NCBI GenBank assembly: GCA_018656655.1
Contig: JABHYW010000040.1
Location: forward strand, 1-40,380
Direction of reading: 5' to 3'
Length of the DNA: 40,380 bases
Source: Candidatus Komeilibacteria bacterium
GTDB lineage: Bacteria; Patescibacteriota; Patescibacteriia; UBA1558; GWA2-36-10
A program made the position numbers and the translations under genes. Under the pieces are notes generated by a model. It made no database searches, had not been told where the DNA came from, and saw only the letters and a list, made by a program, of their open reading frames with translations. Below, piece by piece: positions 15,137-17,203 of this stretch. Numbering within the stretch: position 1 is the first letter of the stretch; every line of letters begins with the position of its first letter.

Positions 15137-15162
15137 CAAAAAACCGCCCTAACGAGCGGTTT
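15137..15162 (-). terminator. Intrinsic terminator for the secE-nusG-rplK-rplA operon
   Basis: Minus strand AAACCGC-TCGTTAGG-GCGGTTTTTTG. Confidence 0.8.
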
Positions 15163-15192: not shown

Positions 15193-15879
15193 TTAATTTA
15201 TACTTACTTTGATACTAGGTCCCATTGAAGATGAAATGTATAAAGCTTTAATAAAAGTACTTTTTAAACTTTGAGGTTTTGATTTCTTTAAAGACTCAAG
15301 GAAAACTGCAAAATTCTCAAGTAACTTAGCATCATCAAATGATGTTTTACCAATAGTCAAATGAATATTAGCAGTACTATCATTTTTGTAAGATACTTTA
15401 CCTTTTTTAAGCTCACCAACCATTTTAGTTATATCTGGACCAATTGTACCAGCCTTGGGATTAGGCATAAGACCTTTTTGACCAAGTACTTTAGCAATCA
15501 CTGCTAATTTTGGCATCATCTCAGGTACAGTAACCGCAATATCAAAATTTGTTTTTGAAGTTTTTTTAATCTCAGCAATTAATTCTTCACTACCAACTAA
15601 ATCAGCGCCAGCATCTTTAGCTTCTTTAGCTTTATCTTCTGGTACAAAAGCAGCTATATTAATAGTCTTACCAGTACCATGTGGAAGTGCTGCAGAGGCT
15701 CTAACAATTTGATCGCCTTTTTTGGGATCAATACCTAATCTAGCGTGAACTTCTATAGAAGCATCAAATTTTACTACGCTAGTTTCTTTAACTAATTTGA
15801 TTGCTTCTTCAATTTTATAAATCTTATCGCTATCAATCTTAGCTTTAGCTTCTTTTAATCTTTTACTTACTTTTGACAT
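15193..15879 (-). CDS. rplA: Ribosomal protein uL1
   Basis: EAIKLVKETSVVKFDASIEVHARLGIDPKKGDQIVRASAALPHGTGK, GLMPNPKAGTIGPD, MGPSIKV. Confidence 0.96.
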   Translation of the reverse strand: MSKVSKRLKEAKAKIDSDKIYKIEEAIKLVKETSVVKFDASIEVHARLGIDPKKGDQIVRASAALPHGTGKTINIAAFVPEDKAKEAKDAGADLVGSEELIAEIKKTSKTNFDIAVTVPEMMPKLAVIAKVLGQKGLMPNPKAGTIGPDITKMVGELKKGKVSYKNDSTANIHLTIGKTSFDDAKLLENFAVFLESLKKSKPQSLKSTFIKALYISSSMGPSIKVSIN

Positions 15880-15880
15880 A

Positions 15881-15931
15881 ATTATTTATTATTACGAGGT
15901 TCAAACGCTCAACCGACTAGCCAAGCTCCCT
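15881..15931 (-). repeat. Copy 1 of duplicated structured leader, immediately 5' of rplA
   Basis: Minus strand GAGGGAGCTTGGCTAGTCGGTTGAGCGTTTGAACCTCGTAATAATAAATAAT; near-identical to 16398-16449. Confidence 0.8.
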
Positions 15932-15934
15932 CCG

Positions 15935-15962
15935 TGTCCTCCATAGCTTTACGCGAAGGAGA
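15935..15962. repeat. Dispersed family-B hairpin element (intergenic copy)
   Basis: TGTCCTCCATAGCTTTACGCGAAGGAGA; compare 25261-25291, 27048-27074, 34111-34139. Confidence 0.65.
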
Positions 15963-15971
15963 GAAGAATAT

Positions 15972-16397
15972 TTATTTTCCTATTTTAACTCCCATTTGAC
16001 GAGCAGTACCAGCAATTATCTTTTTTGCTTGTTCTACGTCATCGGTATTTAAATCTGGCATTTTAGCTTCTGCAATTTCAGTAAGTTGTGCATCACTTAA
16101 TGTAGCAACTTTTTCTTGCAATGGACTACCAGAACCTTTTTTTAAACTAAGTTTTTTCTTTATCATATCAGATGCCGGGGCAGTCTTAGTAACAAAAGAA
16201 AAACTTCTATCTTCATAAATAGATAATTCTACAGGTACTACTTCTCCCATACGTTCTTTTGTAGCTGCATTAAATTGCGTACAAAAAGCTTGAATATCTA
16301 AACCATGGGGCCCTAAAGCTGTACCAACTGGAGGAGCTGGAGTAGCTTTACCAGCTTGGATTTGTAGCTTAACAATTTGTTTTATTTGTTTTGCCAT
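15972..16397 (-). CDS. rplK: Ribosomal protein uL11 (start corrected to MAKQIKQ)
   Basis: [46 protein letters not shown]...[10 protein letters not shown]. Confidence 0.95.
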
Positions 16398-16449
16398 ATT
16401 ATTTATTATTACGAGGTGCAAACGCTCAGCCGACTAGCCAAGCTCCCTC
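16398..16449 (-). repeat. Copy 2 of duplicated structured leader, immediately 5' of rplK
   Basis: Minus strand GAGGGAGCTTGGCTAGTCGGCTGAGCGTTTGCACCTCGTAATAATAAATAAT. Confidence 0.8.
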
Positions 16450-16457
16450 ATTATTAT

Positions 16458-17003
16458 TTATATTTTTTTAATTTGTAAAAAATCTAATTCTACTGGAGTC
16501 TCACGACCAAACATAGAAACTAATACTTTGGCTTTACCACGAGCTTCATCAACTTCGGAAATCTTACCTTCATGATCTTTAAATGGACCATCGGTAATCT
16601 TAACAACTTCATCAACTTCAATATCAACTTTAAATTCTGGTTCTTCAGCACCCATTCTTTGCATTAATTGTTTTATCTCTGCCTCAGAAACAGGAGTAGG
16701 TGTAGTACCAGAACCAACGAAACCAGTTACGTTTGGAGTATTTCTAACTACATACCAAGAAGCGTCAGTTACTACCATAGATACCAAAACATAGCCTGGA
16801 AAAATCTTTTCCTTAACTGTTTTTCTTTTTCCGTTCTTAATTTTAATTTTAGTCTCGGTTGGAATAATAACATCAAAAATCTTATCTTCCATATCCATAG
16901 ATTCAATACGTTGTCTCAAATTACGACAAACGTTTTCTTCATAACCAGAATAAGTATGTAATACATACCACCTTCGACCCTGTTGTGCGGTTTGTTTTGG
17001 CAT
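16458..17003 (-). CDS. nusG: Transcription termination/antitermination protein NusG
   Basis: RRWYVLHTYSGYEENVCRNLRQRIESM, FPGYVLVSM, VRNTPNVTGFVG, KITDGPFKDHEGKISEVD. Confidence 0.96.
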   Translation of the reverse strand: MPKQTAQQGRRWYVLHTYSGYEENVCRNLRQRIESMDMEDKIFDVIIPTETKIKIKNGKRKTVKEKIFPGYVLVSMVVTDASWYVVRNTPNVTGFVGSGTTPTPVSEAEIKQLMQRMGAEEPEFKVDIEVDEVVKITDGPFKDHEGKISEVDEARGKAKVLVSMFGRETPVELDFLQIKKI

Positions 17004-17020: not shown

Positions 17021-17203
17021 TTATTTAATCAAGCCTTCTATTACTTGGCTAAGACCCAAATCAACTACCCCTAGAAAAATAGCCACTGCAATAGAAACAC
17101 CAATAACCATTAAAGTATGATTAATGGTTGTTTGTCTAGTTGGCCATACTACCTTAGATAGTTCTTCTTTGGCTCCTTTAAAATAGCTTACTATTTTGTT
17201 CAT
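17021..17203 (-). CDS. secE: Preprotein translocase subunit SecE
   Basis: YFKGAKEELSKVVWPTRQTTINHTLMVIGVSIAVAIFLGVVDLGL; adjacent to nusG. Confidence 0.93.
   Translation of the reverse strand: MNKIVSYFKGAKEELSKVVWPTRQTTINHTLMVIGVSIAVAIFLGVVDLGLSQVIEGLIK

Follow-up and report, generated by a model that had tools for sequence, protein, structure and literature searches.

The window, by which we mean the whole stretch of 40,380 nucleotides that was analysed, is a 40-kb contig from a MAG of 780 kb (84% complete), and it carries a nusG-rplK-rplA cluster on its minus strand. The first gene of the cluster is a short ORF (17021..17203, minus strand) which, judged by its look and position as read from the sequence, is secE-like. 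It is followed on the same strand by nusG (16458..17003; Pfam PF02357 and KOW), rplK, which specifies ribosomal protein L11 (15972..16397; PF03946 and PF00298), and rplA, which specifies ribosomal protein L1, the proposed repressor (15193..15879; PF00687, E 5e-54). The closest named matches to this L11, at 60–68% identity, come from Uhrbacteria, Moraniibacteriota, Buchananbacteria and Falkowbacteria; L1 is a normal member of its family with 45% identity to E. coli L1. From the gene order we infer that rplK and rplA are co-transcribed. An intrinsic-terminator-like hairpin just past rplA (15141..15162, minus strand) is likely to be the end of the operon, a weak assignment with one such hairpin found against 1.1 expected in shuffles.

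A first-pass annotation of this DNA had reported a repeat 5′ of both rplK and rplA, and two L1-operator-like hairpins are indeed located there. Hairpin 1 (16413..16449, minus strand; GAGG-GA-GCUUGGC-UAGUCG-GCUGAGC-GUUUGCA-CCUC) lies between nusG and rplK, and hairpin 2 (15896..15932, minus strand; GAGG-GA-GCUUGGC-UAGUCG-GUUGAGC-GUUUGAA-CCUC) between rplK and rplA. Each is 37 nt in length, 35/37 positions are identical, and the two copies are 517 bp apart. As had been noted, one of the mismatches is a T/C difference in the stem at which either base pairs with G, and the other falls outside that stem, being an A/C difference in the 3′ internal loop. The AUG of rplK (ATG at 16397) follows hairpin 1 by 15 nt and that of rplA follows hairpin 2 by 16 nt. 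Both spacers (16398..16412 and 15880..15895, minus strand) are A/U-rich and without a Shine-Dalgarno (SD) sequence, and they too are near-identical, the identity extending to about the start codon. The alternative, longer TTG start given to rplK by the ORF caller would cross the 3′ part of hairpin 1. That neither start has a good SD, a point also made in the first pass, is true yet ordinary: an SD-like 4-mer is absent in 19/24 window ORFs of at least 150 aa, so that its absence is the rule in the window and not part of the regulatory device.

Fold and covariation

Both copies fold into an outer stem GAGG/CCUC, a 5′ bulge GA, an inner stem of 7–8 bp, an apical loop of the UAGUC type and a 7-nt 3′ internal loop, GUUUGNA. 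For both 50-nt elements this fold, which had been proposed from the letters alone with its outer stem included, is the MFE as well as the centroid structure (−16.5 and −12.3 kcal/mol). The folding-energy z-scores are modest at −2.2 and −0.07, uninformative for the rplA copy, and in a 92-nt context the outer stem of that copy mispairs with upstream sequence. Folding energy alone is thus weak support; that from covariation is strong.

Directly upstream of the rplA hairpin lies an imperfect short inverted repeat, CTCCTTCGCGTAAAGCTATGGAGGA, at window 15934-15971, which can pair with the operator GAGGG in a longer fold. Small inserts resembling it are present at the same spot in three relatives (L008, L011 and L013). 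When checked as a possible mobile repeat, it had no more than loose matches in the rest of the genome.

Among 20 rplA-side homologues from the window's family, 95.5% of the cells at paired positions are paired and 7/11 pairs have changed on both sides, with a covariation score of 0.529 versus 0.151 when shuffled and at most 0.128 with slid partners. A set of 45 sequences, which added other families and E. coli, gave changes on both sides at 9/11 pairs and a score of 0.533 versus 0.149 shuffled, although this alignment was fitted to the model and so leans towards the structure. Together, folding and covariation show an asymmetric internal loop, 5′ GA with a longer 3′ side, between two helices.

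Scanning by simple regex or by exhaustive hairpin enumeration missed copies and returned many false structures, and a covariance model (CM R1), trained on rplA-side copies only, took its place. Hairpin 2, itself among the training sequences, scores 52.4 bits, and hairpin 1 scores 53.8 bits (E 5.3e-10); rplK-side copies were detected in nine genomes at 32.6–53.8 bits. At gathering and at relaxed thresholds the hairpins match no family in Rfam 15, and a CM built from the present set could therefore be used to annotate them.

Two near-identical copies 517 bp apart might also be the trace of an ordinary dispersed repeat, REP- or MITE-like, which landed twice in the operon. Genome-wide searches refute this, and we attach practically no probability to it. 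A 20-nt core with up to 3 mismatches has exactly two matches in the whole 780-kb assembly, with 0.00 expected by chance in the window. The CM likewise finds two matches in this genome. Every family genome that has the locus gives one or two, none of them away from rplA or rplK, and the covariation described above is strong.

Distribution among relatives

The rplA-side copy is present in 20/20 loci of the family and in most loci inspected from the class, and the rplK-side copy in 9/20 family loci, namely the window's own (L003), L004–L009, L015 and L022; an rplK copy was found in this family only. A broader CM run on 382 class genomes, with strict filters at which weak matches are lost, gave matches in 41 of them, and every genome with two copies belongs to the window's family. 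Sixteen class-wide matches outside the family were fetched as L165–L180, and 15/16 were automatically placed just before an L1-like ORF, L175 being the one without a placement. The distance from hairpin to start codon is 14–20 nt in nearly all relatives. At seven loci of order-level relatives (L027, L030, L031, L032, L035, L039 and L044) rplK and rplA are separated by an unrelated gene, yet the hairpin still lies 14–19 nt before rplA, which argues that the element belongs to the L1 gene. The default site of the element in the class is before rplA. The inserted gene at these seven loci is small and membrane-protein-like.

Eighty named loci from a wide range of phyla were put through a strict hairpin scan, which overlooks variants and cannot serve as a census; rplA-side candidates came mainly from Patescibacteria. 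The same scan gave an rplK-side candidate in one locus only, that of an actinobacterium, and this is probably a chance occurrence given a background of 5/1040 windows.

The E. coli operator and the 23S rRNA site

The rplK leader of E. coli MG1655 contains, about 18 nt before the AUG, the hairpin GGG-GA-GCCUC-loop-GAGGC-GUUAUUA-CCC, which, in line with a review (PMC10931766), we take to be the mapped L1 target. By eye, positions 903-930 of the E. coli locus (L070) have the same anatomy as the window hairpins. Common to them are the outer stem, the 5′ GA, a GC-closed inner stem, the 7-nt 3′ internal loop, a similar spacing to the AUG and the encoding of L1 in the same operon; the E. coli 3′ loop GUUAUUA is identical to that of one family relative (L005). 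The sole CM R1 match across the 3 kb of the E. coli locus is the rplK leader at 904-929, with 16.1 bits and an E value of 0.42 over 223 kb, a score that would carry little statistical weight if its position were not the expected one. The GAGG/CCUC outer stem and the UAGUC apical loop are features of the window and not of E. coli. Furthermore, the L1 site of E. coli is a single one, in the 5′UTR before rplK only (PMC10931766), whereas in the window rplK and rplA are each preceded by a hairpin.

L1 sites in mRNA are described as mimics of the 23S site (PMC10931766). As the window's own 23S is absent from the MAG, three congeners (G001-G003) were used instead. Their L1 site reads GGUGGGAGACU...AGUCACCAGUGAGAUACCACC, and when the aligned site was read by eye the internal-loop core of the hairpins matched it. 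H76/H77(/H78) of 23S and the mRNA hairpins are alike in a 5′ strand G(U/A)GG-GA-G(C/A).., a 3′ strand ..UACC(A/U)C and an asymmetric internal loop. They differ in that 23S has a longer 3′ loop, ACCAGUGAGAUA, to which the window's family adds helix H78, and the mRNA has a 7-nt loop on a plain hairpin. CM R1 accordingly has no match to 23S in its entirety: H77/H78 are different, as is the longer 3′ loop, and the likeness resides in the internal-loop core. Relatives whose H78 is truncated have GUGGGAGCCUUCGGGCGCCAGUGAGAUACCAC as their 23S site, and this closely resembles class mRNA operators such as GUGGGAGCUCGCACGAGCGCUUGAACCAC.

In many members of the class 23S H77/H78 has shrunk to a mini-hairpin, often UUCG-capped (L187, L184, L198, L204, L189, L195, L188, L194, L192 and L191), so that the L1 site in rRNA and the operator in mRNA become almost identical. 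Loss or truncation of H78 in CPR has already been published (PMC12641178). The apical loop of the mRNA element keeps GUC in 20/20 rplA-side family copies and in most rplK-side copies, and AGUC is also seen in a few families besides this one (L023, L082, L165 and L166). The E. coli operator does not explain this conserved GUC; the ends of H78 in family 23S carry AGU(C/U).

Inserts in rRNA genes are known for CPR. In seven genomes (G010, G033, G037, G035, G359, G056 and G117) the 23S matches are interrupted near model positions 2044-2103, shortly before the L1 stalk region, which suggests inserts in the rRNA gene. In one further genome the sole 23S match (L067, G013:C1:181304-181389) is an 86-nt stretch that covers the L1-stalk region, without a neighbouring 23S match.

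Taken together, we regard both hairpins as very probably the L1 autogenous translational operator, present twice in a genome of the Patescibacteria (CPR), on the strength of where and how often they occur, their fold and its covariation, their distribution among lineages and their likeness to the E. coli operator and, in the internal-loop core, to the 23S site of congeners, all of which were observed here; L1 binding, repression and occlusion are the interpretive part of this reading. The L1 gene lies directly downstream of hairpin 2, which fits an operator whose regulated transcript carries the L1 gene. The first-pass annotation had suggested one such operator per cistron, and the refutation tests that could be run, on dispersed copies and on covariation, speak for its suggestion at the level of sequence, as do the likeness to the E. 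coli L11-operon operator and, as far as the internal-loop core of congeners goes, that to the 23S L1 site.

Each hairpin would then be an mRNA mimic of the L1-binding site (H76/H77) of 23S. L1 in excess of free 23S rRNA would bind a hairpin ending 15–16 nt before a start codon, and the bound protein would sterically hinder loading of the 30S subunit on the A/U-rich, SD-less initiation region. Hairpin 1 would shut off rplK (L11) and hairpin 2 rplA (L1), so that the two might be repressed individually. In E. coli, rplA relies on translational coupling to rplK. Here rplA would have an operator of its own in the 92-nt gap that follows rplK, and need not depend on such coupling.

One might suppose instead that another factor, L11 or a general RNA chaperone for instance, binds the hairpins, or that they are sites of RNase processing or mRNA stability. 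Binding of L1 is predicted from sequence, after all, and each hairpin stands at a cistron boundary, a frequent place for processing sites. We nevertheless hold this to be very improbable: the element tracks rplA and neither rplK nor the operon boundary, it matches the E. coli L1 operator, and its internal loop and AUG spacing are conserved, none of which a processing site needs.

The rplK-side copy and known dual operators

On a tree of NusG, L11 and L1 the rplK-side trait needs at least four changes; several branches are weak, and gains and losses therefore cannot be apportioned. The two copies differ at 0 positions in L004 and L008, at 2 in the window, at 3 in L022 and at 8–11 in L005, L006, L007, L009 and L015. 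Copies within a genome are closer to each other than in permuted pairings (summed distance 52 versus a mean of 84.8, with 0/20000 permutations as low), a result which is only suggestive since relatedness is not taken into account in the permutations and two of the genomes, L003 and L004, are closely related. As the stems vary freely between genomes with pairing kept, a stem common to both copies of one genome speaks for recent copying rather than for recognition, and suggests gene conversion or re-duplication.

This patchiness, with an rplA-side copy at every family locus and most class loci inspected, an rplK-side copy at nine of 20 and at least four changes of state, would suit a model in which the hairpin before rplA is the only working L1 operator and the rplK-side copy a fixed duplicate of little regulatory effect. 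We think this unlikely, because the divergent rplK-side copies (those of L005, L006, L007, L009 and L015) differ in stem sequence but have retained base pairing, the 5′ GA and the 3′ internal loop, and their spacing to the start codon stays at 14–18 nt. Returning to a predicted operator before each gene, we would tentatively propose, as one possible history, that L1 feedback in the class is anchored on rplA alone and that one family copied the rplA operator to rplK, with repeated re-copying by gene conversion or re-duplication; this would be a natural succession of duplicated regulatory elements, donor and recipient being still recognisable. The apical GUC may, in the same tentative scheme, add a second L1 contact which imitates the AGU(C/U) end of 23S H78.

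Covariation thus points to a putative classical L1 feedback operator in a reduced, uncultured CPR lineage with few SD sites. The gain of an rplK copy within one family, and the sharing of copies within genomes, offer a tractable case of an operon gaining a second operator. For CPR, we found nothing published on L1 operators in the open literature, which is no proof that such a paper does not exist.

A duplicated operator as such is not new, as the first pass had implied it to be. According to a 2024 review (PMC10931766, section 3.1) L1 sites precede rplK in Proteobacteria, rplA in Actinobacteria and Cyanobacteria, and both genes in Firmicutes, Thermus thermophilus and Thermotoga maritima; for these dual sites the review cites Fu et al. 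2013 and Mikhaylina et al. 2021. The novelty here is therefore the new lineage and its lineage-specific history. As far as the review describes them, the dual sites of Firmicutes, Thermus and Thermotoga are like those of the window in having an irregular stem-loop with an internal bulge before each gene of rplK-rplA; the window belongs to a different phylum, and the comparison is with the review's description. Set against those dual systems as so described, the window's family differs in that its rplK copy is sporadic within a single family and often shares its sequence with the rplA copy.
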